From Halobaculum sp. MBLA0147 (GTDB lineage Archaea; Halobacteriota; Halobacteria; Halobacteriales; Haloferacaceae), in the NCBI RefSeq assembly GCF_041361345.1, contig NZ_JBGKAD010000001.1, positions 1,736,001 to 1,800,000 on the forward strand: a stretch of 64,000 nt of DNA, in the 5' to 3' direction. Within the stretch, counting starts at the first letter, position 1. The number at the start of each line of letters is the position of its first letter. The position numbers and the translations under genes were made by a program. A model generated the notes under the pieces. It saw nothing but the letters and a program-made list of their open reading frames with translations, ran no database searches and was not told where the DNA came from. Positions 1 through 10,937 of the stretch are shown here, one piece after another.

Positions 1-639
1 CTCGTTGAAGTCGTCGAACCGCCCCTCGGCCGCCTCCTCGTAGGCGAGTCGCTGGTTGTCGACCAACAGGATCCCGTCGACTACCGCTTCGAGTCTGTCG
101 AGTCCGTAGACGGCGTTCGACGCCTGCCGCCCCGCCGACACCGTCTCCTCGTCGTCGGCGTTCTGCCGCGTGATGTCGCCGCTGGTGTTGGGCAACACCG
201 CCACGCCGATCACGTCCGTCGTCTCCCCCGCGAACTCCGTCACCGCCTCGGCGACGTGTGGCGCGATCCCACAGCCGGTCCCGCCGCCGAGCCCCGCGAA
301 CACGAACGCGAACGAGGGTGTCCCCTCGCCGAACTGTTCTGCGAACGCCGACGCCAACGGCCCGACGAGGTCCGAGGCCGTCTCGTCGGCCACCTTCGGG
401 TCGCGTCCGAAGCCGCCGGACACCTTCTCCTCGAACCCCGCCTCGTCGCCCGGGACGAGCCCCTCGCGCTGTGAGATGCCGATCCACGACTCTTGGCCCA
501 CGTTCGAGAGATTCTGGAGGTCCCGGATCGTCGAGTTCACCGCGACCGGCGTCGCGAGTGTCGACACACGATCCACCTCGAAGACACTGTCGACGAGAGC
601 ACACCCCGCCTGTCCCGCGCCGACGAAGAGGTACGCCAT
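1..639 (-). CDS. Tubulin/FtsZ-superfamily GTPase, C-terminal part cut by window edge
   Basis: Only the first 213 codons are inside the window. The N-terminus holds a nucleotide-binding loop GAGQAG (residues 7-12), and GGGTGCG at about 118-124 matches the tubulin/FtsZ signature GGGTGSG with Cys for Ser. The family binds GTP and polymerises; the glycine-rich loops are visible, while the T7 catalytic loop lies outside the window. It resembles the CetZ-like or FtsZ-like branch more than canonical FtsZ, since it lacks the usual FtsZ N-terminal tail. It follows a helical protein gene and a second tubulin-like gene on the same strand, 293 bp away, and probably has its own promoter there. The ATG at 639 is the natural start. 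Polymer formation is inferred. Confidence 0.8.
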   Translation of the reverse strand, partial: MAYLFVGAGQAGCALVDSVFEVDRVSTLATPVAVNSTIRDLQNLSNVGQESWIGISQREGLVPGDEAGFEEKVSGGFGRDPKVADETASDLVGPLASAFAEQFGEGTPSFAFVFAGLGGGTGCGIAPHVAEAVTEFAGETTDVIGVAVLPNTSGDITRQNADDEETVSAGRQASNAVYGLDRLEAVVDGILLVDNQRLAYEEAAEGRFDDFNE

Positions 640-932
640 CTGTTACAACTTGGTACCCGGGGCAAAATCCTCTTAGTTCTACCGTATCCTTTCGCCGAGA
701 CGTGTCGGGAAACCGCGAGAGGGCACGACGCCCAACGAGCAGCCGTCGACGCGACCCGCGACAGTCTCCGAGGCGTCGCTCGTCAACGACCGGCCGAGTG
801 CTCGCGAGCGGCGCGGTGGTGTCCACCCGACGCACGGCGTCGGTCGAGCCTCGACCCACTCGCCGCCTCGACCGAGCCGGCAGTCTACGGACGGAACGGG
901 CCGAGTACTCCGGGGCACGACCCCGAGGTGAG

Positions 933-2234
933 TCACCCGCGGAGTCGTCGGAGCATCACGCTGTACTCGTTGCGCTCGTACAGCGACTCGACGGTGTCGA
1001 GCAGTTCCGCGGCCGCCTCGGCGGTGGCGGCCGCGCGGGTCGCGTCGCCGTCTGTCATCGCCGTCTCGGCCCGCTCCCGGAGCGTGTCCGCCGTCCGCAG
1101 GAACAACAGCGGGATCGAGTGGTTGTGGTCCTCGCGCCGGTTGACGTACAGCTCCGTGATCTCCCGCCGCCGCTCGGCCACGTCCGTCACCCGCTCGGAG
1201 ACGGGCGTGTCGGCGTCCGCCGCCGCCCCGTCCGTCCCGTCGCTCCACGTCTCGTCGGCCGTCGTCTCGTCGGCCGTCGGCTGGCCGGTCGCCTCCTCGG
1301 TGGCCCGCTCGGCCGCGGTGTCGGGAGTCGCGTCTGCCGCGGTGTCGGGAGTCGCGTCTGCCGCGGTGTCGGGAGTCGCGTCTGCAGCGGTGTCGGGAGT
1401 CGCGTCTGCCGCGGTGTCCGCCGGGCCGTCGTCGGCGTCGTCTCGCGTGTACGCGTCGTCCGCCGCTACCTCGTCGCCCTCCGTCGCCGCGAGCGCGTCG
1501 ATCAGCGTCTCGCGGTAGAACGTCGCCTCCGTCTGGACGGCGTACGCGAGCGGGCGGTTCGTCTCGTCGACGCGCTCGGCAAGCGACTGGAGTTCCGCGA
1601 GCCGGTCGCGGACCGCCGTCGCGGCCGGCGTGTCGCCGAGCGCCTCGGCCTCCGTCGTCGCCCCCGCGACGGCCCGACGCGCGCTCTCGCGACTCGCGTC
1701 CAGCGAGGCGACCGCGCCGGCGGCGTCGAACGCGTCGACGGCGTCCGCGAGCGCCGCCTCGACCGTCTCCCGGGAGCCGCCGTCCAGCGCGTCGAGCAGT
1801 CGTGTCGCGTCTCGCGAGAGTCCGTCGCGCCGCTCCGCGACTCGTCTGGCGGCCGTCGCGACCGCGTCCGACCCCTCGGCCGCGTCCGCCGAGGTGGCTC
1901 CCCGGTCCGGTTCGGCGGCGTCCGCGTCGCCGGCTCGTCCCGCTCCCGTGTCGGATCGTCCGCCCGCCGACCCACCGCCAACGGAGCGACTCGCCTCGCT
2001 GGCGGCGTCGCCGTCGTCGGTCACGACGAGTCGGTCGGTCTCCGCCGCGGCGGCGAGGTAGTCGACGCGCTCGCCCAGGTCGGCGTCGGGGGGCGGCGTC
2101 TCGCCGCCGTCGATCTGACTGGTGGCGCGGACGATTCCGGCCTTCACCGCCTCGAGTTCCGCACGGACCGCCGACGGGTCGGGCTCCGTCCCGACGAGGC
2201 GTGCGAGCGCCTCGACAGTGTCGTCGGCGGTCAT
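933..2234 (-). CDS. Helical, acidic partner protein of the tubulin-like genes
   Basis: A 433-residue soluble protein rich in Ala, Asp, Glu and Arg. I do not recognise a named family. Predicted helical stretches at the N-terminus, centre and C-terminus are separated by low-complexity acidic linkers, one built from an eight-residue repeat of type ADATPDTA. No signal peptide or membrane segment is visible. The ATG at 2234 is one base past the stop of the upstream tubulin-like gene (2236), so the two are almost certainly translationally coupled and co-transcribed. That arrangement suggests a partner or regulator of the polymer. The last 90 residues (helices with RRREITELYVNRRED) look most conserved and may be the interaction module. 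Function is unknown. Confidence 0.75.
   Translation of the reverse strand: MTADDTVEALARLVGTEPDPSAVRAELEAVKAGIVRATSQIDGGETPPPDADLGERVDYLAAAAETDRLVVTDDGDAASEASRSVGGGSAGGRSDTGAGRAGDADAAEPDRGATSADAAEGSDAVATAARRVAERRDGLSRDATRLLDALDGGSRETVEAALADAVDAFDAAGAVASLDASRESARRAVAGATTEAEALGDTPAATAVRDRLAELQSLAERVDETNRPLAYAVQTEATFYRETLIDALAATEGDEVAADDAYTRDDADDGPADTAADATPDTAADATPDTAADATPDTAADATPDTAAERATEEATGQPTADETTADETWSDGTDGAAADADTPVSERVTDVAERRREITELYVNRREDHNHSIPLLFLRTADTLRERAETAMTDGDATRAAATAEAAAELLDTVESLYERNEYSVMLRRLRG
1312..1419. repeat. In-frame 24-bp tandem repeat, four copies plus a partial
   Basis: Units begin at 1312, 1336, 1360 and 1384, and a partial copy follows. They are nearly identical; the fourth has one change (gcc to gca). 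Each encodes eight residues (ADATPDTA type) in an acidic linker of the helical tubulin-partner protein. The near identity suggests recent expansion by slippage, so length may vary between strains. Confidence 0.9.
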
Positions 2235-2235
2235 C

Positions 2236-3831
2236 TCACGACAGTCCGTCGCGCCCCAGACACTCGAACAGCGCCTCCACGTCGTCCCAGACGGCCTCGA
2301 CCTGCTCGGCCCGCCGGTTGTTCCCCTCCATCTGGAGCCGCTCGGCGTGGTCGTACATGTTCGCCAGCGACGGCATCTCCGGGTTCCACAGCGTCCCCCA
2401 CATGTGGAGGTCGTCGACGTGTGGCGTGACGATCTGGTACACCTGGATGTCGACGCTGCCGACACCCTGGACGGCGTCGGCGTCCAACAGCGACGGCCGA
2501 CGGAGGATGTCGTGGAGCGTCCCGTCGTCGACGTGCGTGGACACGTCGGCCATCTTCTCGGGGGGCCCGTAGACGATGAAGTTCCCACCCCACGCCGTCG
2601 ACGGGTCGAAGTCCGCCAACCGGTTCTGGTTGATCGTCTGTTGTGCGAGCAGTTCCAGCTTCGACTCCGTGATGTCGTCGAGGCGGAGCCGTCCCAGCGC
2701 CGGCGCCAACACGACCGCGGGGCGGCGGTCGTCGTCCATGCTCCGCGGGTACTTGTCCTCGACGAGTTTGAAGCCGTCCGCCACGTCGAACACGTCGCCC
2801 TTGATCGACTTCGTCGCGTCTCTGTCGATCAACCCCGGCGTCGACGACATCGTGAACGCCTCGAGGAAGGCGACGAGCGGCTTGTTCAACTGTGCGAACC
2901 GCTCGGTCGTGTACCGCGAGAGGCCGCTGATCCGGGGCGTGATGTCGGCGCTCGCCTCCTCCAACAGCCGGTTGTTGAACGGCACGATGGCGTCGACCGA
3001 CTGCGCGATCCGGGCGAGGCCGACCACGCCGTTCACCTTCGCACGCCCGCCGAGTTCCGACTGGTTCGACCCCTGTGAGGGGATGACGACGGAACTCAAC
3101 AGCGGCTTGTCGACGATGTAGTCGCCGGTCAACACCTCGTTGCGGATCTTCTCCGCGATCACCGGCGTCGAGCCACAGCCCGTCCCCTTGGTGACGCTGT
3201 GGATCATCATCACCGCCTGTGCGTCCCGCACGTCCGGCTTCGTCATGTCCCACCGCTCCCTGAACGGGTCTTTCTCGTCGGCGAAGTCCGCCGCCGCCAC
3301 CTCCTCGCCGTTGTCCCACCGGTACCCCATCCCGGCGTAGTCGTGGACCCCGAGCCCGATGATCGCGTTCGACAGCAGGTCGTTGCGCGAGTAGTCTTTC
3401 AGTTCCGTCGCGTAGTACGTCTCCTCCAACTCCGCGATGTTCGTGTTGAGCAGTCCGTACCCCGCCAGCCCACCGTTCCAGATCCGGGCACGCGACTCGT
3501 CGCTCGACGCGAGCGTGTCGCGGCGCAACAACACCGCGTCGAGGATGTTGTTCCCCGCGCCACCCACCCCGATCATGAACCACTTCTCGCCGATCATCGA
3601 GGAGCCGGTCCCGCCGCTGGCGGTCGGCGTCGGGTCGGCGTGGTCCCCGTCGTCCGGGGGCTCCGGCTCGCGGCTCGTCGCGTCGCCGTCGAACAGGTGG
3701 TCGAACCGGTCGTCGTACATCGCCGAGACCGACGCCTCCTGGTCGCCGTGCTCGGTGAGGATGTGGTCCTCCAGGCGGTCGGTACTCCACTCCGAGGCTC
3801 CCGTCAGACAGATCTTACACTGTTGTGGCAT
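2236..3831 (-). CDS. Tubulin-like GTPase with N-terminal C2H2 zinc finger
   Basis: A 531-residue protein of the divergent Tubulin_2/FtsZ-like type. Residues 5-28 form C-x2-C-x14-H-x4-H, a C2H2 zinc finger. An acidic linker follows (about 40-80). The GTPase starts with GVGGAGNN (88-95); the phosphate-binding loop is TKGTGCG (214-220) in place of GGGTGSG, and the T7-like loop GLIDRD is at about 333-338. The block PFNNRLLEE near 284-292 matches the FtsZ region that reads IPNDRLLE. The protein should bind GTP, but the altered T7 loop leaves hydrolysis uncertain. A 103-bp gap separates it from the membrane-protein gene upstream, and its stop is one base from the next start. The zinc finger suggests docking to DNA, RNA or protein. 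Confidence 0.85.
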   Translation of the reverse strand: MPQQCKICLTGASEWSTDRLEDHILTEHGDQEASVSAMYDDRFDHLFDGDATSREPEPPDDGDHADPTPTASGGTGSSMIGEKWFMIGVGGAGNNILDAVLLRRDTLASSDESRARIWNGGLAGYGLLNTNIAELEETYYATELKDYSRNDLLSNAIIGLGVHDYAGMGYRWDNGEEVAAADFADEKDPFRERWDMTKPDVRDAQAVMMIHSVTKGTGCGSTPVIAEKIRNEVLTGDYIVDKPLLSSVVIPSQGSNQSELGGRAKVNGVVGLARIAQSVDAIVPFNNRLLEEASADITPRISGLSRYTTERFAQLNKPLVAFLEAFTMSSTPGLIDRDATKSIKGDVFDVADGFKLVEDKYPRSMDDDRRPAVVLAPALGRLRLDDITESKLELLAQQTINQNRLADFDPSTAWGGNFIVYGPPEKMADVSTHVDDGTLHDILRRPSLLDADAVQGVGSVDIQVYQIVTPHVDDLHMWGTLWNPEMPSLANMYDHAERLQMEGNNRRAEQVEAVWDDVEALFECLGRDGLS

Positions 3832-3934
3832 CGGCTGTCGTACTCAACGTCTGGCTTGTGGTACCTGTATCTTTCCCGCCTCCTCGCACCACCGGGGGAG
3901 AAGTGTCGCCGCCGGGCACACCGGCCGTCCGTCG

Positions 3935-5806
3935 TTAGGTGTACTGGTCGCGGAACCGCTCGGTCGCGGTGTCGACGGCGGCCGCGACGGTCGTGTCGTC
4001 GGCCGCGGTCAGTTCCAGCCACCCCGGTGGCTCCGGGCTCTGGAGGTCGACCCGCGCGAACAGGTCGGACTGTCGTCTGACGAACCGGCGGACGTTCACG
4101 AGCACGTCCGGCACCGCTACCACCTCCGGGAGGTCCGCCAGGTTGTACTGTAACACGTCGTCGTCGTCCGCGGCCGTCTCCAGTTCTCGCAGGACGTACA
4201 ACACCTCGTCGACCACCTCGTCCGTCGGCACCGCCGACTCCACCTGGTCGCCGCCGGTCCCGGTGGTCGTGTCGTCCGCGGTGTCGTCTCCCGCCGCCGC
4301 GTCGGTGTCCGCGTCGGTGTCCGGCTCGTCCAGCCGCGTCACCTCGACGCGTCCCTCCGCCACGGAGACTCGCACGTCGCCGGTCGCCCGCTCGGCCGCC
4401 GTCGCCACCGTCTCGACGAGGTCCGTCGACAGTTCCGCCGGCACCGCCAGACTCCCGCCGTCGTCGAGGGTCGACGACAGCGTGGTCGCGAACTCGACCG
4501 CGACCGCGAGGGTGTCTGCCGCCTCGACGATCTCCTCGGCGTCGCGTCGGGCCGCGTCGAACTGGCAGTCGTGGAGCGTGCGCTTCACCTCCTCGATCCG
4601 GCGACGGAGTTCACGCGAGCCGGTCGCGGCCTCCGTCTGTCCGTCGACGACCACCTCGCGGAGTCGGTCCGCGAACCGCAGTCGGTCGTCCTCGATCCGC
4701 GACTCGGCGGTCGCGAGGTGGTCGGTGGCGTCCGCGACGGCCGTCGCGACCGGCTGTTCCCGCCGGTCGAGGTACGACTCCAGACGGTCGAACGCCTCGC
4801 CGGCCGCCGCGACCGCCTCCGCGAGTGTCCCCACCTCGGTGTCGCCACGGGCCGCGTCCGTCAGCGTCTCGCCGAGGTGGTTCACGTGGACCGGCCCGTC
4901 GACGCCCGGTAGGTCGAACTCTCTGTGCTCCGTCGGGAGGTTCTCCAGTCGGTAGACGCCACCGAACGTCGACGTGACCGTCGGGTCGTCGTACCGGTCC
5001 GCGAGGCGGTCGGCGAGGCGGTCACGGAACGTCCGCTCGGCACGGTCGAGCCGGCGGGACGCGTCGAGACGGTCGACCGCCGTCTCCACCTCCGCGACGC
5101 GTCGGTACCGCTCCTCGGAGTCGGACAGCGACCGACACGTCTCGATCCGGTCGTGCAGCTCCGTCGCCTCCGACTCGAAGTCGGAGCGCTCACCGCGGAG
5201 GTCTCGGACGGCGTCGGGTGCCACGTCCGCGAGCGTGTCGAGCGCCGACGCCGGGAACCGACGGTCGAACTCCGTGTCGAACGTCCGTTCGGTCTCCTCC
5301 AAGTCGGCCTCGACGGTCGCGAGGTCGGCGTTGGCCTCCTGTTCGACGACCCGTTCCCACGGGTAGTCGTAGGCCGCGTACACCATCGCCCCCGCGGCGA
5401 GGACGGGGACGAGCGTGAACCCGACCAGTTGGACTGCCGGGACGTCGGCCGAGTACAACGGCGCGTACACGCCGAAGAACAACGCCGCGAACAACACCGC
5501 CCCCAGTCCGACGGCACCGTACGTCGCCTCGCGGTGTTCGAAGAGGTACATCCCCGCGCCCTGTGCGGCCCACGCGGCGACGATCAACAGGAACAGCGCC
5601 ATCACGACGCCGGAGCTCGACTTGAACACCACCGCCGCCTCGAACAACACCGGGACGGACAACAGTGGATCGGCGACCGGTTCGACCCCCGCCGACTCGG
5701 AGGTGTAGCCGAACAACGCCATCAGCGTCTGGACCAAGGTCACGACGAGCGGGACACCCGCGACCCCCCACGCGACCAGTGGTCCCCTGTCGGAGACGGT
5801 GGACAT
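3935..5806 (-). CDS. Four-TM membrane protein with long helical cytoplasmic domain
   Basis: A 623-residue protein. Hydrophobic segments at about 10-33, 66-86, 95-117 and 122-143 predict four membrane helices. The remainder is charged and largely helical, with long coiled-coil-like stretches from about 150 to 430, an acidic linker rich in Asp and Thr near 485-520, and a folded tail. I used the ATG at 5806; an ATG seven codons upstream is possible but less natural. It is the first gene of the minus-strand group that continues with two tubulin-superfamily genes, which makes it a candidate membrane anchor or scaffold for those polymers. No enzymatic motif is seen. The family is not one I can name. 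Confidence 0.75.
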   Translation of the reverse strand: MSTVSDRGPLVAWGVAGVPLVVTLVQTLMALFGYTSESAGVEPVADPLLSVPVLFEAAVVFKSSSGVVMALFLLIVAAWAAQGAGMYLFEHREATYGAVGLGAVLFAALFFGVYAPLYSADVPAVQLVGFTLVPVLAAGAMVYAAYDYPWERVVEQEANADLATVEADLEETERTFDTEFDRRFPASALDTLADVAPDAVRDLRGERSDFESEATELHDRIETCRSLSDSEERYRRVAEVETAVDRLDASRRLDRAERTFRDRLADRLADRYDDPTVTSTFGGVYRLENLPTEHREFDLPGVDGPVHVNHLGETLTDAARGDTEVGTLAEAVAAAGEAFDRLESYLDRREQPVATAVADATDHLATAESRIEDDRLRFADRLREVVVDGQTEAATGSRELRRRIEEVKRTLHDCQFDAARRDAEEIVEAADTLAVAVEFATTLSSTLDDGGSLAVPAELSTDLVETVATAAERATGDVRVSVAEGRVEVTRLDEPDTDADTDAAAGDDTADDTTTGTGGDQVESAVPTDEVVDEVLYVLRELETAADDDDVLQYNLADLPEVVAVPDVLVNVRRFVRRQSDLFARVDLQSPEPPGWLELTAADDTTVAAAVDTATERFRDQYT

Positions 5807-5944
5807 AGTAGGGGGGTCGGCACACACTCACAAAATTGTTCGCCGTCGCGTCCCGTAGTCGTCGCGGTGAGCGTGTGAACGCGTTCCACGACGCCACGCA
5901 TCCGGAATCCTTAACTCCGATACGGCGGTACGTCGTGGTGACGC

Positions 5945-6017
5945 GCCGGTGTAGCTCAGCTGGTAGAGCGATTCCTTCGTAAGGAATAGGCCGAGGGTTC
6001 AAATCCCTCCACCGGCT
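5945..6017 (+). tRNA. tRNA-Thr (anticodon CGT)
   Basis: A complete 73-nt cloverleaf. The acceptor arms GCCGGTG and CACCGGC pair over seven bases, with discriminator T at 6017. The D-arm has GCTC/GAGC, the anticodon stem ATTCC/GGAAT closes the loop TTCGTAA, and the T-arm GAGGG/CCCTC closes TTCAAAT. The anticodon is CGT, reading ACG. CCA is not encoded. There is no intron. A TATA-like CCTTAACTCC lies about 30 bp upstream. Confidence 0.97.
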
Positions 6018-6119
6018 CTGTCCTTCCTCCCGAAGACGACCACGGTAGTTACGTCGCCGAGTTCGTTCCCGAACCGCACGCCCACCTCACACAGATTCTC
6101 GCACCGACACGGACGCACC

Positions 6120-8363
6120 TCAGAACCGCACCAGCGAGTCGTTCCGCCCGGTGGCGACGGCCGTCTCGACGTCGCCGAGGTCCCACCCGAGCGGCGAGAG
6201 GACGCTCGCGGTCGCACGCAGCGCCAGTCGCCGGTAGAACGCCGCGTCGTACCGCGTCCCCGGCTCGACCTCCGGCCGCAGACGCACCCGGTCGCTCGTC
6301 GCGGCGTCGTCGTCGACGACGAGGTACTGCACGTCCTGCCCCGGGTGAACCGAGCGCCCGAGACGCTCGGCCCGGCGGAGTGCGGCGACCGCCCGCGTCC
6401 GGTGGTCGTACGCGTCGGCCGTCTTCGTCACGCGCTGGCGGACGAGCAGGGCCCGTGCCGACACGTCGCCCGCCGCGAGGCTGCGGAGGTGCTCGGCGAG
6501 ACACCCGACCACCGCGTCGGCGTCGCGCGTCTCGTCGAGCGTCTCGATCAGATCCCGTTGTACGTCGGCGACCCACGAGGGTGTCGAGCGCTGTCTGGCC
6601 TCGATCCCGCGTGTCTTGTATCGATCCTCGTCCGGCCCGGGATCCGCCCGGCGGCCGACGTACCGCGTCAGTGCGCCGGCGTCGCCGTCCCGGCGAGTAC
6701 AGAACGCGACCCAGTCGAAGGCGCTCTCGTACTCGAGGTCGACCCCCACGTCGGCCGACACCCGTGCGGCGACGGCGTCGAGCGGCTCCTGCGTGGCCCC
6801 CTCGCGGGGTGTCACCCACAGGGAGTCGACGATCCCGTGGAGGACGCGCCAGCCGGCCGCCTCCAGCGTCTCCTTCGCGGTGAGGAGGATGTCGCGAGCG
6901 TAGGCGTTGATCGCCTCGTGGACCTCGATCCGGCCGAACTTCGCGTTCGAGAACCCCTGGTACCCGAAACACGACACCAGGATCCACTTGAGCGCACGCG
7001 ACCGTCCGGCGAGGCGGTCGCGCTCGGTCGCCGAGAGATCGTCCTCACGGAGGCGTCGCTTCGCCGCCGCGCGGTCGTCGACGATCGGTTCCAACACGTC
7101 CGGGAGGACGCCGTCGCGGTCACACACCGAGTAGCCGAGCTCGGGCACGTCGGCGCGGTCGTGACACCGACACCGGACCGTCTCCGGCGAGAGGTTGTGT
7201 CGGCAGATCACGTTCGGGTACAGCGACGCGAAGTCCAACTCGTGGACCGTCTCGTGGAGCCCCACTGCGGGGGCGAGCGTCGTCCCGCCGCGGTCGCCGG
7301 CGTGGAGTTGGCGTGCGGTCTTGAACCGTTCCGGGCGCCACGCGTGCCACTGGACGAGTACGTCGCGGGCTCGCGCCTCGCGGATCTGGATCGCGGTGAG
7401 CACGTTGCCGATGCTCGCCCACCCGAGTTCCTGGAGCGGCTTGCGCGACCGTGCGACGAGGTCGAGACAGCCCGCGAGGTTCGTCTCGTCGAGGAAGAAC
7501 GTGTTCGACCGGTCGAGGAGGACGCGCCCGGGGACATCGTACCGCGCCGGACTGTGGTGGCGCTGCCCGTACGACTCGAACGTCGATCGCTCGGCGAGTT
7601 GCCGGTAGGTGGGGACTACCTCGCGGTCGAGCCCGGTCGGGACCCGCGGCAGTCCGAGGTCGACGCCGAGCCGCTCGGCGCTGTCGGCCACCAGCGGGAC
7701 GACCGCCGCGCGGTTCACGACGAGCACGTCCGGGTCGAGCGTGTCGAGGCGAGCCGCGAGCGTCTCCAGTGCCGCTCGTGCCGTCTCCGCTGGCGTCGTC
7801 AGGGTGTCGGGGGCCTCGGCGACCGCGTCCGGGCCGGTCGTCGTGGTGGTGCCGAGACGGAGCCGCGAGAGGTCCTCGTCGGCCATCGCGCCGGACGGCA
7901 GTCGGAGCTCGTAGACCGTCGGGAGGCGGTCGGGGACGGGCGAGCGGTCCCGGTCCAGACAGAACCGGAACCCGGGCGAGAGGTCCACGTCGAACGCGCG
8001 GTAAGGAACCCGTCCGGGCGGTCCCCGATCCTCGACGAACGTCGCGACGCGTCGCACGCGACGCATCCGGTCGACGGCGACACGGAGCGTCGGCTGCTCG
8101 GCGAAGCGGTACCCCGGGCGACGCGTCTCGACGCGCTGGTCGACGACCGCCGGGTGGTCGGCCAGCGTCTCGCGCAGGTCGGCGAGTGCCGTCCGACACC
8201 GCTCCGGGTCGGGATCCGCGGCGGTCATCCCGTGGCGTGTCACGACGAACAGTGCCGGCCGGTACGACTCGTGGACGGTCGCAGCCCAGCCCGGGTCGGT
8301 GGGTGTCCCGGTCAGCGACCACGCGACGGGGTCGCCGTCGAGGACGTCGATGGCGTACGGCAT
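6120..8363 (-). CDS. polB2: Family B DNA polymerase, PolB2-like, with altered catalytic motifs
   Basis: A 747-residue family B polymerase. Motif A ([10 protein letters not shown]) is intact and motif B ([15 protein letters not shown]) keeps its Lys and the Tyr-Gly region. Motif C reads HGIVDS where active enzymes have YGDTDS, so the first of the two aspartates is replaced by Ile while the second, generally the more critical, is kept. In the exonuclease region the NxxxFD motif is replaced by NRAAVVPLV, so proofreading is probably lost. Archaeal PolB2-type enzymes are known for such disrupted sites. It is last in an operon after a small protein (2-bp gap) and a RadA-like protein. It may be a weak or translesion polymerase, or a structural factor. 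Confidence 0.85.
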
Positions 8364-8365
8364 CC

Positions 8366-8746
8366 TCACTCGGGTCCGTCGGTGGGTGTGTCGGCTGGAG
8401 CCTCGTCTGGTGCGTCGTCTGGTGCGTCCGCTGGCGCGTCGTCGAGGGTCGTCTGTGTCTCTTCCTCGTCCGTCGTCTCGCCGCGCTCGACCGGCTGGGT
8501 GAGACGAGTCTCCAGTTCGTCGATCCGTTGTTCCTGTGCGAGACAGATCCCGACGAGGAGTGGGACGACCGGCGACTCGTGGTTGAGGTGGCTCGCGGCG
8601 TCGGCGTGGTCGCGGCCGTACCGGAACAGGCGGTCGAACCGCTCCTGGTCGCCCCGACGGAGTGCGCGCCGGTACGGGCCCCAACGGTGTTCCAACGCCT
8701 GCAGGAGATCGCGGTAGGTGGGGTTAGTCCGGCCCACGATCACCAC
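8366..8746 (-). CDS. Small helical protein between RadA-like and PolB2 genes
   Basis: A 126-residue soluble protein. Residues 1-90 form a compact Arg-rich, probably helical domain (for example YRRALRRGDQERFDRLFRYG). The last 35 residues are an acidic, Asp/Ala/Pro-rich tail. I do not recognise a family. Its ATG overlaps the stop of the RadA-like gene by 7 bp, and its own stop is 2 bp before the polymerase start, so the three genes form one tightly coupled unit. A role as an adaptor between the other two is plausible but inferred. Confidence 0.75.
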   Translation of the reverse strand: MVIVGRTNPTYRDLLQALEHRWGPYRRALRRGDQERFDRLFRYGRDHADAASHLNHESPVVPLLVGICLAQEQRIDELETRLTQPVERGETTDEEETQTTLDDAPADAPDDAPDEAPADTPTDGPE

Positions 8747-9714
8747 CCCGCTCCCGGCGTCGGTGTCCTCGGGGACGCCGGCGACCCCGGCGACGCACGT
8801 GTCGGGTCACTCTCCGTCACCGTCGCGTGGCGGGCCCGGAGCAGTTCCCGCCAGAAGGCGAGCGTCGTCTGGACGGTCCCGTCCGCACCCGGGTACGCCA
8901 GCGTCTCGAACGCCACCTCGTCCCCGTGGAACCGCGGCCCGAACGGCGTCCGCTCGACGCCGATCCGCGTGCTCGCGGCCGCCAGCGGCTCGGAGAACGT
9001 CGTCGGCCGCGCCCGTGTGGTGAGGACCGGCACGTCGAGCGCCCGGACCACGCGACGGAGGAGCGCGACCGCCCGGACGAACAGTCGGCGACACGCCGCC
9101 TCGGGGCGGTCGCTGGCCCGGTAGAGCGCGTCGAGTGCGGGGGCGACGACGACCGCCAGACGCTCCGTCGCCGGACCACCGAACGGACTCGTCGCGCCGT
9201 CGTCGACCCAGCGTGCGAGCTGGGCGACGAGCGTGTGGTGTTGGTGAGCGGTGAACGCACGGGCGACGTGGACGCGATCCAACACGCGGTCCGTCGGTGC
9301 GACCCGCACCAGCGTCTGCGTGGTCGCGTACCCTTGTGCGTCGATCCAGACCACGTCACCACCCTCGTCCAGCGCCGTGTCCACCGCGAGGGTGTCGAGC
9401 GCGGTGAGGACGTCCCGCCGTCGCTCGCGTGGCGTCTCCGCGTCCGGATCGAGCCGGTAGATCTCGGCGTCCAACTCGGGCAGTTCGGCCGTCGGTGGCT
9501 CCGCGTCGAGGTCGCCGACGACCGGCGAGGCGTCGGCGGTGCGTCGGTCGTCGGCGTGACTCCCGAGCAGGGTTTCGGGACTCGGGCCGAGGCGCCGCGA
9601 GTCACCACGGGTCGCCACCGGCGGGCGGTCGGTGCGTCGGCTCGCAGCACCCGTCTCGGAACGGGTGCCGTCGGTCTGTATCTGCACACGCAACCGTCTC
9701 GGCGGCGGGCACAT
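8740..9714 (-). CDS. RadA/RecA-like protein lacking a Walker A motif
   Basis: A 324-residue protein. The block VVWIDAQGYA, followed by a segment reading DRVHVARAFTAHQHHTLV, matches the RadA core (IYIDTEG... VARAFNSNHQ). The expected GExxSGKT loop before it is missing; an Arg/Glu-rich helix occupies that place. The protein is therefore a degenerate recombinase fold unlikely to hydrolyse ATP. Residues 1-75 are a variable, charged leader. The ATG at 9714 was chosen because the frame upstream is low-complexity and crosses a palindromic control region. It is the first gene of the operon with a small protein and PolB2. By analogy with bacterial ImuA-ImuB-DnaE2 it could load or regulate the polymerase; this is inference. 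Confidence 0.75.
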   Translation of the reverse strand: MCPPPRRLRVQIQTDGTRSETGAASRRTDRPPVATRGDSRRLGPSPETLLGSHADDRRTADASPVVGDLDAEPPTAELPELDAEIYRLDPDAETPRERRRDVLTALDTLAVDTALDEGGDVVWIDAQGYATTQTLVRVAPTDRVLDRVHVARAFTAHQHHTLVAQLARWVDDGATSPFGGPATERLAVVVAPALDALYRASDRPEAACRRLFVRAVALLRRVVRALDVPVLTTRARPTTFSEPLAAASTRIGVERTPFGPRFHGDEVAFETLAYPGADGTVQTTLAFWRELLRARHATVTESDPTRASPGSPASPRTPTPGAGW

Positions 9715-9803
9715 AACCGCGACCGGGCCGTCGCCGGCTTTCCGCGTAGGACCGGCCGTCGGGTGTGACCCCGACGAGCCGCCGCGTCTCGGACGCGCGG
9801 TGG

Positions 9804-9857
9804 GTTTCCGGGTCGTTTCCGGAAACGGGGGTTCTCCGGGTCGTCTCCGGAGACGAC
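9804..9857. promoter_or_regulatory. Paired palindromes upstream of the RadA-like/PolB2 operon
   Basis: Two perfect palindromes lie 28 bp centre to centre. CGTTTCCGGAAACG is at 9814-9827, and GTCGTCTCCGGAGACGAC is at 9840-9857. Each is preceded by a matching half-site (TTTCCGGG at 9805 and TTCTCCGGG at 9832), so the block is a direct repeat of a half-site plus palindrome. It lies about 90-145 bp before the RadA-like start and just past the Orc1/Cdc6 gene stop. It may be an operator. The first copy, followed by GGGGG, also recalls an origin recognition box. Confidence 0.55.
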
Positions 9858-9914
9858 GGCGCCGAGTCTCGGGGGTCCAAACGGCGACCGGAGACACACC
9901 TGCCGTGGCCCTCC

Positions 9915-10937
9915 TCACTCCGTGGTCGAGTGAGCGGGGACGGCCGCGTACGTCCGACTCGGCCCCTCGCCGCTGGCGGCCACGAGGTCGTAGTGAGTGA
10001 GCTTCTGGAGCCACGAGCGCACCGTCCGCTTGGTCCGTGGGTCCTCGACCCGCTCGCGGTAGCGGTCGTACAGCTCCTTCGGGGCGAGTTCGCCCGCCTC
10101 GACGAGGATCTCGTACACCGTGCGTTGCTGTGGACGGAGCGCGTTCAGGTTCTTCGTCCGCACGTCGCGGTGCCCCTCGGGGATCGCCGCCTCGACGTGG
10201 TCGTCCGCGAGGCGGTCGACACCCGCCCGGTCGGCGCGGCGGGCGGCACTCCGGAGGATCGACAGCGCGACACGGGCGTCGCCCCCGCCGGCGTCGGCCA
10301 TCCTGTGGAGGTGCGCGTCGGTGACGGCGTCTCTGACCAGCCCGTGTTCGACGCGCGCCGCGAGGATGTCGACCAACTCCGCGGTGTGGTAGGCGTCGAC
10401 GTGGACCGTCTCGGCGGTGTGGAGCCGCGACCGGACGCGTTCGTCGAGCCCGGCGAGCAGTTCCGCCTCGTCGTTCGTGACGAGGACGATCGAGAACGTC
10501 GGGAGACGGTAGAGGTCGTACACGAGCCGGGAGTCTTCGAGTTGGTCGGCCTCGTCGAGCGTGACGATCACCGGCGGGCCGTCGTAGGCGGCGAGTCGGT
10601 CGAGTAGTTCGTCGTGGGGGGTCGAGCGCCGCCGGACGTCGACGCTCTCGCCGAGCGCGCCGAGGATCTCGTAGGTGGCCTTGAACCGGCTGTACGACTG
10701 CCAGCAGTTGAGGTGGACCGCCGCCACGTCGCGGACCGTCTCGCGGAGGCGCGAGACGACGAACTTCGTGATCGTCGTCTTTCCGGTCCCCGACGGGCCG
10801 GTGACGAGTGCGGGTTCCGTCGGCTCCCCGTCCGTGATCGGGCGGAGCACCCGCGACAACGAGTTGACCTCGTGGTCGCGGTGGACCACGTCGTTCGGGA
10901 CGAACCCCTCCCGGAGGACGCGGGCGTCCGTGATCAT
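9915..10937 (-). CDS. orc: Orc1/Cdc6-family replication initiator AAA+ ATPase
   Basis: A 340-residue protein of normal Orc1/Cdc6 length. Walker A GPSGTGKTT is at about 48-56, Walker B reads VTLDEADQL, and the sensor region LVTNDEAELLAGLDERVRSR is typical of the family. The C-terminal 90 residues form the winged-helix DNA-binding domain that recognises origin recognition boxes. Haloarchaea carry many paralogues, so this need not be the main initiator. I found no clear cluster of origin boxes upstream (10938-11050). Palindromes downstream of its stop are noted separately. The start is the ATG at 10937. Confidence 0.93.
   Translation of the reverse strand: MITDARVLREGFVPNDVVHRDHEVNSLSRVLRPITDGEPTEPALVTGPSGTGKTTITKFVVSRLRETVRDVAAVHLNCWQSYSRFKATYEILGALGESVDVRRRSTPHDELLDRLAAYDGPPVIVTLDEADQLEDSRLVYDLYRLPTFSIVLVTNDEAELLAGLDERVRSRLHTAETVHVDAYHTAELVDILAARVEHGLVRDAVTDAHLHRMADAGGGDARVALSILRSAARRADRAGVDRLADDHVEAAIPEGHRDVRTKNLNALRPQQRTVYEILVEAGELAPKELYDRYRERVEDPRTKRTVRSWLQKLTHYDLVAASGEGPSRTYAAVPAHSTTE

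Follow-up and report, generated by a model that had tools for sequence, protein, structure and literature searches.

Do the tubulin-like genes at one edge of the 64,000-nucleotide stretch of the Halobaculum sp. MBLA0147 genome analysed here (the window) belong to a system of their own, or are they additional copies of known cytoskeletal genes? Archaeal relatives of tubulin have been studied as FtsZ (division), CetZ (shape) and rare true tubulins. The initial annotation of the window had proposed that two tubulin-like GTPases, a helical protein and a four-segment membrane protein form a cytoskeletal or membrane-shaping system separate from FtsZ1/FtsZ2 and CetZ.

Gene order and extent of the locus

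ORF calls on the window confirmed the four minus-strand genes, for which we have coined the names used here, as for all other proteins of the locus. TM4 (3935-5806; the longest ORF begins at a GTG at 5827) encodes 624 aa, with four hydrophobic N-terminal segments predicted to cross the membrane followed by an acidic helical cytosolic part. TubA (2236-3831) is a divergent tubulin-superfamily GTPase of 531 aa. The ATG of Hel (933-2234) at 2234 lies one base past the TubA stop codon (TGA, 2238-2236), as the initial annotation had it. Hel is an acidic protein of 433 aa with a conserved C-terminal part of about 100 aa and a low-complexity middle, in which the in-frame repeat DTAADATP occurs about four times (around 1315-1425). 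The ORF at 1-639 corresponds to the first 213 codons of TubB, a 393-aa protein whose full gene lies at G000:C1:1735458-1736639 (window positions plus 14000 give L002 positions, and these plus 1722000 give G000:C1 positions).

Actually, about two thirds of the locus are located outside the window, including a third tubulin-like gene and at least seven further conserved genes. Reading the genome past the window edge gave the same-strand order TM4–TubA–Hel–TubB–(small)–E–F–TubC–H–J–I, opposed by a convergent arm, K–AAA–D237–D336–D382, on the plus strand. The genes beyond the edge, called as ORFs on fetched genome stretches like all genes here, encode E (402 aa), F (695 aa), TubC (404 aa), H (1021 aa), J (429 aa) and I (at most 1198 aa, the longest ORF). 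The small protein between TubB and E, found in most loci examined, contains hydrophobic segments. The proposal of a distinct conserved set thus stood, and its size did not: instead of four genes with two tubulins, the system has approximately 10 to 16 genes with three.

On the other side, just past TM4 (window 5945-10937), there are a tRNA-Thr(CGT) and genes for a family-B DNA polymerase and Cdc6/Orc1, a stretch that resembles part of some other element. The polymerase and Cdc6 genes (window 6-11 kb) were rejected as possible partners, since neither has a homolog next to any other copy of the locus. The boundary of the locus is thus sharp at this point.

Three divergent tubulin families

In the window genome TubB (43-47 bits; 47.1 for the part at 1-639) and TubA (38.4 bits) score above the PF00091 cut-off of 33 bits, confirming two different tubulin/FtsZ-like GTPases within the window, and TubC scores 29.9 bits, under this cut-off. 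At E<=0.001 the same model matched all members of the three families, i.e. 16 of 16 TubC (best 1.8e-12), 10 of 10 TubA and every TubB scanned. Against the FtsZ equivalog TIGR00065 (cut-off 295.2 bits), TubB and TubA reached only 39.8 and 26.1 bits, and TubC had no match in the NCBIfam equivalog scan. In a maximum-likelihood tree TubA, TubB, TubC, CetZ and FtsZ appeared as five separate groups, each with 99-100% support (100/100 for TubA). The 18 CetZ sequences formed one clade, and the three families of the locus fell outside it on long stems; the deep joins between the groups reflect long branches and are not trusted. TubA, TubB and TubC are three separate clades, and are not FtsZ, CetZ or FtsZl1/Tubulin_2.

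The nucleotide-binding loop T4 contains an invariant GGGTG in TubB and TubC. In TubB of the window it reads GGGTGCG (268-288, minus strand), with G118-G122 and G124 invariant across archaea. TubA has TKGTGCG instead (3172-3192, minus strand; invariant in A3/A7), with the first two glycines replaced. The acidic residues of the T7 loop are also kept. D-x-x-D was found in 37 of 37 rows of the three families, the TubA alignment being less sure, and in the same alignment CetZ shows D-x-x-E and FtsZ D-x-x-D. D245/D248 of TubB and D234/D237 of TubC are invariant from haloarchaea to a micrarchaeon. The candidate T7 loop of TubA, VFDVAD (2776-2793, minus strand; D349 and D352), aligned with the T7 acids of CetZ and FtsZ in the multiple alignment of 57 rows only, since hhalign did not place it. 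Some TubB relatives of about 300-313 aa (L118 8719-9660, L119 3433-4368 and L122 8630-9529) do not have the GGGTG loop (e.g. GLGDSNIT) and still adjoin F; they are apparent pseudo-GTPases. In addition, the micrarchaeal TubB (L114 14812-16434) carries an extra C-terminal domain that resembles, by eye, carboxypeptidase-regulatory or PEGA-like domains, possibly a fusion with an H-like domain.

Of the three tubulins, TubA is by far the most divergent. Its similarity to solved tubulins was weak (E about 1e-3), and its AlphaFold2 model, built from an 18-row alignment, had low confidence (pLDDT 43.7). The longest confidently modelled stretch was residues 1-50, which hold a putative zinc-binding element, CxxC...H(x4)H (3748-3819, minus strand), whose four residues (C5, C8, H23 and H28) were invariant in 18 orthologs.

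The nearest solved structures of TubB and TubC are CetZ1 and CetZ2 (4b46 and 4b45, E 1e-10 and 6e-14), with an acid at the same T7 position, and RefSeq names TubA and TubB of Halobacterium salinarum R1 "cell division protein FtsZ" (TubC is a "hypothetical protein"). Both facts could be taken to mean that the proteins are just paralogs of FtsZ or CetZ whose gene neighbours have nothing to do with them. This reading is contradicted by the tree and by synteny and has next to no probability in our judgement: the similarity to CetZ lies mostly in the GTPase half, the three clades stand well apart from CetZ and FtsZ, the neighbours are conserved across archaea, and the window genome has its own FtsZ, CetZ and FtsZl1-type genes elsewhere, among nine tubulin-superfamily matches in total. 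The separation from FtsZ1/FtsZ2 and CetZ proposed in the initial annotation is thus supported. CetZ (Duggin 2015; Brown and Duggin 2023) has been suggested to have links to the cell surface, and the CetZ neighbourhoods described in the portions of PMC9856176 compared here include type IV pili, cofactor biosynthesis and sugar epimerase genes, which are not genes of this locus.

Distribution across archaea

Haloarchaea of five families share the ten main proteins in a conserved order. The order TM4-TubA-Hel-TubB-E-F-TubC-H-I was identical in nearly all complete haloarchaeal neighbourhoods fetched, and J, the tenth main gene, was recognised between H and I through profile searches. The exceptions were contig ends and three loci (G002, G053 and G124) without TM4-TubA-Hel. 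TM4 orthologs came first in every TubA-bearing haloarchaeal locus not cut by a contig end, and the Hel ortholog sits between TubA and TubB. A TubC query recovered full-length orthologs (43-74% identity) from about 20 of 148 genomes in the family. Among 392 haloarchaeal genomes TubC was present in 37 (16 of 95 genera, five families) and TubA also in 37, with 35 in common and two discordant genomes on each side; this association is far beyond chance (Fisher p about 4e-45), so that the tubulins of the locus co-occur in more than the few genomes that would suit a chance neighbourhood. At the level of the phylum, full-length TubB and TubC were found in exactly the same 10 of 393 genomes, and around 40 further genomes lacked TubC at the same threshold and had TubB relatives that were weaker and, for the most part, partial.

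A TubC scan of named genomes gave 58 loci. These include Halobaculum, Halorussus, Halorubrum, Haloarchaeobius, Haloquadratum and Natronomonas and, outside the haloarchaea, Methanoperedens, ANME-2, Hydrothermarchaeota/Pyrohabitans, Altarchaeum and a micrarchaeon. The core (TubB, F and TubC, usually with H, J and I) extends to Methanoperedens and Hydrothermarchaeota, where TubB-F-TubC is kept and, on contigs that are long enough, is accompanied by J-I (divergent) and H. In the micrarchaeon F-TubC is kept with TubB a few kilobases off, and in ANME-2c and Altarchaeum TubC is found away from the other core genes with a TubB relative elsewhere in the genome (in Altarchaeum, L109 10001-11332 and other loci, apart from F, H, J and I). 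Each of the 19 TubC-bearing genomes tested from distant archaea has a TubB relative, although the match in one (L107) is weak and might represent some other tubulin relative. TubB-F-TubC is the part most widely shared. No relatives were found in viral contigs.

A complete locus of about 15 genes in the same order is carried by plasmid PHS2 (NC_010369.1) of H. salinarum R1, from OE_RS12000 to OE_RS12075. The arm comprises D382 (OE_RS12000), D336 (12005), D237 (12010), AAA (12015) and K (12020), followed on the opposite strand by I (12025), J (12030), H (12035), TubC (12040), F (12045), E (12050), the small protein (12055), TubB (12060), Hel (12065), TubA (12070) and TM4 (12075). Plasmid-borne loci were also found in three Halobaculum and a Natrinema. 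The plasmid record of Halobaculum halobium (NZ_CP126159.1) contains two copies (L037 and L041), 99.975% identical over 19.9 kb and close to both ends of the record, one of them with frameshifts in TubA and TubB; this duplication is probably an unresolved overlap of a circular plasmid. The patchy presence (9% of the sampled haloarchaeal species) together with the plasmid location in several species indicates that the system is dispensable to the group, and argues against an essential role in division.

Plasmid location is also what would be expected of a partition system of the TubZ kind, since the plasmid tubulins TubZ/RepX are tubulin-superfamily GTPases as well. We consider this highly improbable given that the companions here are secreted and membrane proteins of the envelope, that there is no evident small DNA-binding partner, and that in the window genome the locus is on a 3.0-Mb main contig. 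The same patchy and often plasmid-borne distribution would fit an anti-virus defence or conflict system, and the AAA+ ATPase of the arm (PF00004, 107.6 bits) matched the PADLOC IetA models with 2e-26 (L053 12509-14125). All of this match is confined to the AAA+ core, the same part matched by TRIP13 models; the nine other locus proteins tested against PADLOC had no match, and the core, an ancient set that includes surface proteins, is conserved. We regard a defence role as very unlikely.

Predicted envelope partners and relation to FtsZl1 systems

By their predicted topology, the core proteins other than the tubulins are membrane-anchored or secreted. E, H, I and J have predicted signal peptides and large extracellular domains. 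H would expose one region outside the cell, cross the membrane once and have carboxypeptidase-regulatory-like and helical parts in the cytosol. I would have Ig-like extracellular domains and J a helical-looking extracellular part, in both cases followed by one C-terminal membrane segment and a short cytosolic tail. A motif in these tails (acid, spacer, G-D/N-x-L/V-L/V) was present in 32 of 35 tails of I (2.3 in shuffled tails), in 20 of 41 of J (2.8 expected) and in none of the 29 tails of E taken as control; the motif was written after inspecting the tails, and these counts illustrate it rather than test it. Hydropathy places a membrane hairpin at the N-terminus of F, with two segments in most members and a single clear one in others, followed by a long, charged stretch that would be cytosolic. 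The F of Pyrohabitans was modelled confidently (pLDDT 89.8) as a hairpin, a helical rod and a small C-terminal domain. Foldseek found nothing significant for this model in the PDB (best E 0.24), so no known anchor can be named, and an EzrA-like or spectrin-like identity is not claimed. No Pfam or NCBIfam name was obtained above cut-off for E, F, Hel and TM4, nor for J in NCBIfam. K, in the arm, is a large protein whose H. salinarum counterpart is named PQQ-like beta-propeller in RefSeq.

The signal peptides and large extracellular domains, together with the AAA+ ATPase and the beta-propeller protein, might also suggest a machine for secretion or for assembling surface appendages. The tubulin-like proteins would then be GTP switches or assembly factors and not load-bearing filaments. 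Similar archaeal clusters with Ig-like secreted proteins have been predicted to be secretion systems (PMC5898192). We regard this as unlikely, although to be taken seriously, since the core showed no recognisable secretion pore, pilin, peptidase or known export ATPase, and its most widespread part consists of GTPases and a membrane-anchored cytosolic rod.

The closest parallel among known systems is FtsZl1/Tubulin_2 (PF13809), for which a role in membrane remodelling was predicted by Makarova and Koonin 2010 (PMC2875224), also with a divergent tubulin-superfamily GTPase in an operon with membrane proteins. The proteins of the locus differ from it in length, approximately 390-530 aa vs about 1000 aa in FtsZl1, and do not have the extended coiled coil that is characteristic of FtsZl1 after the GTPase domain. 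TubB scored 20.1 bits against PF13809 (N-terminal part; cut-off 27), and weak matches at E<=0.001 were found in 4 of 11 TubB, 2 of 10 TubA and none of 16 TubC. Pfam scans of the window locus recognised no vWA protein, protein kinase or P-loop GTPase as neighbours, which are those defining FtsZl1 systems, and a membrane protein with a P-loop-like motif occurs only beside the FtsZl1 variant. Conversely, F, H, J and I are not described as partners in the portions of PMC2875224 compared here. The window genome has a genuine FtsZl1 gene on another contig (G000:C2:190082-190780; L003 7056-10298), coding for 1080 aa with 46.7 bits to PF13809, and flanked upstream by an AAA-like gene and downstream by one for a membrane protein; it is a second tubulin-type system of this genome.

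FtsZl1 modules are nevertheless associated with those of the locus in some genomes. In G002 and two Halobellus genomes (G053 and G124) the TubB-to-I module adjoins an FtsZl1 module and TM4-TubA-Hel is missing, and in G022 (L123) FtsZl1 is found opposite TM4-TubA-Hel without TubB or TubC. The three former genomes had suggested TubA and FtsZl1 as strict alternatives, an idea that was rejected because G022 has both. In some of the genomes where FtsZl1 adjoins TubB-TubC or TubA modules, the K protein lies between them. Furthermore, in three non-haloarchaeal genomes a degenerate TubB accompanies F, and two of these also have an FtsZl1-like protein close by. These arrangements indicate that the modules exchange, and this ties the system by context to the membrane-remodelling systems predicted by Makarova and Koonin. 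Hence, the Tubulin_2 link drawn in the initial annotation holds for the gene context in some genomes, and fails for the three proteins themselves, all under the Tubulin_2 cut-off. The system is related to, yet distinct from, the predicted FtsZl1 systems.

Non-canonical tubulin-family proteins with patchy distribution have been noted in archaea (PMC9856176), as have the likewise patchy and divergent "Halo.Tub" proteins, whose genes are described as occurring in quasi-tandem copies and as having coiled-coil neighbours (PMC9871819). Compared by description and not by sequence, the portions of both papers considered here contain no account of the conserved locus, of TubB paired with TubC or of their partners in the envelope, and in the literature found, to the extent its text was available, there was no description of a three-tubulin system.

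On balance we lean, if only slightly, towards an ancient archaeal GTP-driven cytoskeletal machine spanning the cell envelope, based on the conserved order, the TubB-TubC pairing, the kept T7 acids and the predicted membrane topology; a membrane-shaping role is what we infer from anatomy and context. In such a machine TubB and TubC would probably polymerise at the cytosolic membrane face, either as one polymer or as two running alongside each other, and their T7 acids would drive GTP hydrolysis. F, with its hairpin and rod, may anchor the filaments, as may the portions of H, I and J that lie in the cytosol; in I and J, the conserved short tails beside the last membrane segment are the probable docking peptides. 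Outside the cell, the Ig-like, helical and propeller domains of these three proteins would link the machine to the cell surface. In haloarchaea it would be extended by TM4-TubA-Hel, as the third tubulin module, and by a soluble arm that includes the beta-propeller K and the AAA+ ATPase. In some genomes the FtsZl1 GTPase module may replace TubA, as an exchangeable additional GTPase module. The likely job would be bending, holding or remodelling a patch of the envelope, rather than essential cell division. Polymerisation, co-polymerisation, docking and envelope shaping are all readings of sequence. That an obligate pair of two tubulins, membrane-coupled to surface proteins and with interchangeable third-tubulin modules, amounts to an undescribed ancient cytomotive system is a more tentative proposal, and the pair is possibly a heteropolymer evolved independently of alpha/beta-tubulin.

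The locus adds to the archaeal tubulin relatives three further families that may act as a set, with a paired core across distant archaeal lineages and likely physical partners that would cross the envelope. There is also a consequence for annotation, with two H. salinarum proteins now labelled as FtsZ. The complete plasmid copy in H. salinarum R1, a tractable laboratory strain, makes deletion and tagging feasible, so that a role as a membrane-linked cytoskeleton is directly testable. For the FtsZl1-type systems, to which gene context has lent a predicted function since 2010, the locus would provide a testable cousin and, if the proposed role is true, multi-tubulin machines would have evolved outside eukaryotes.
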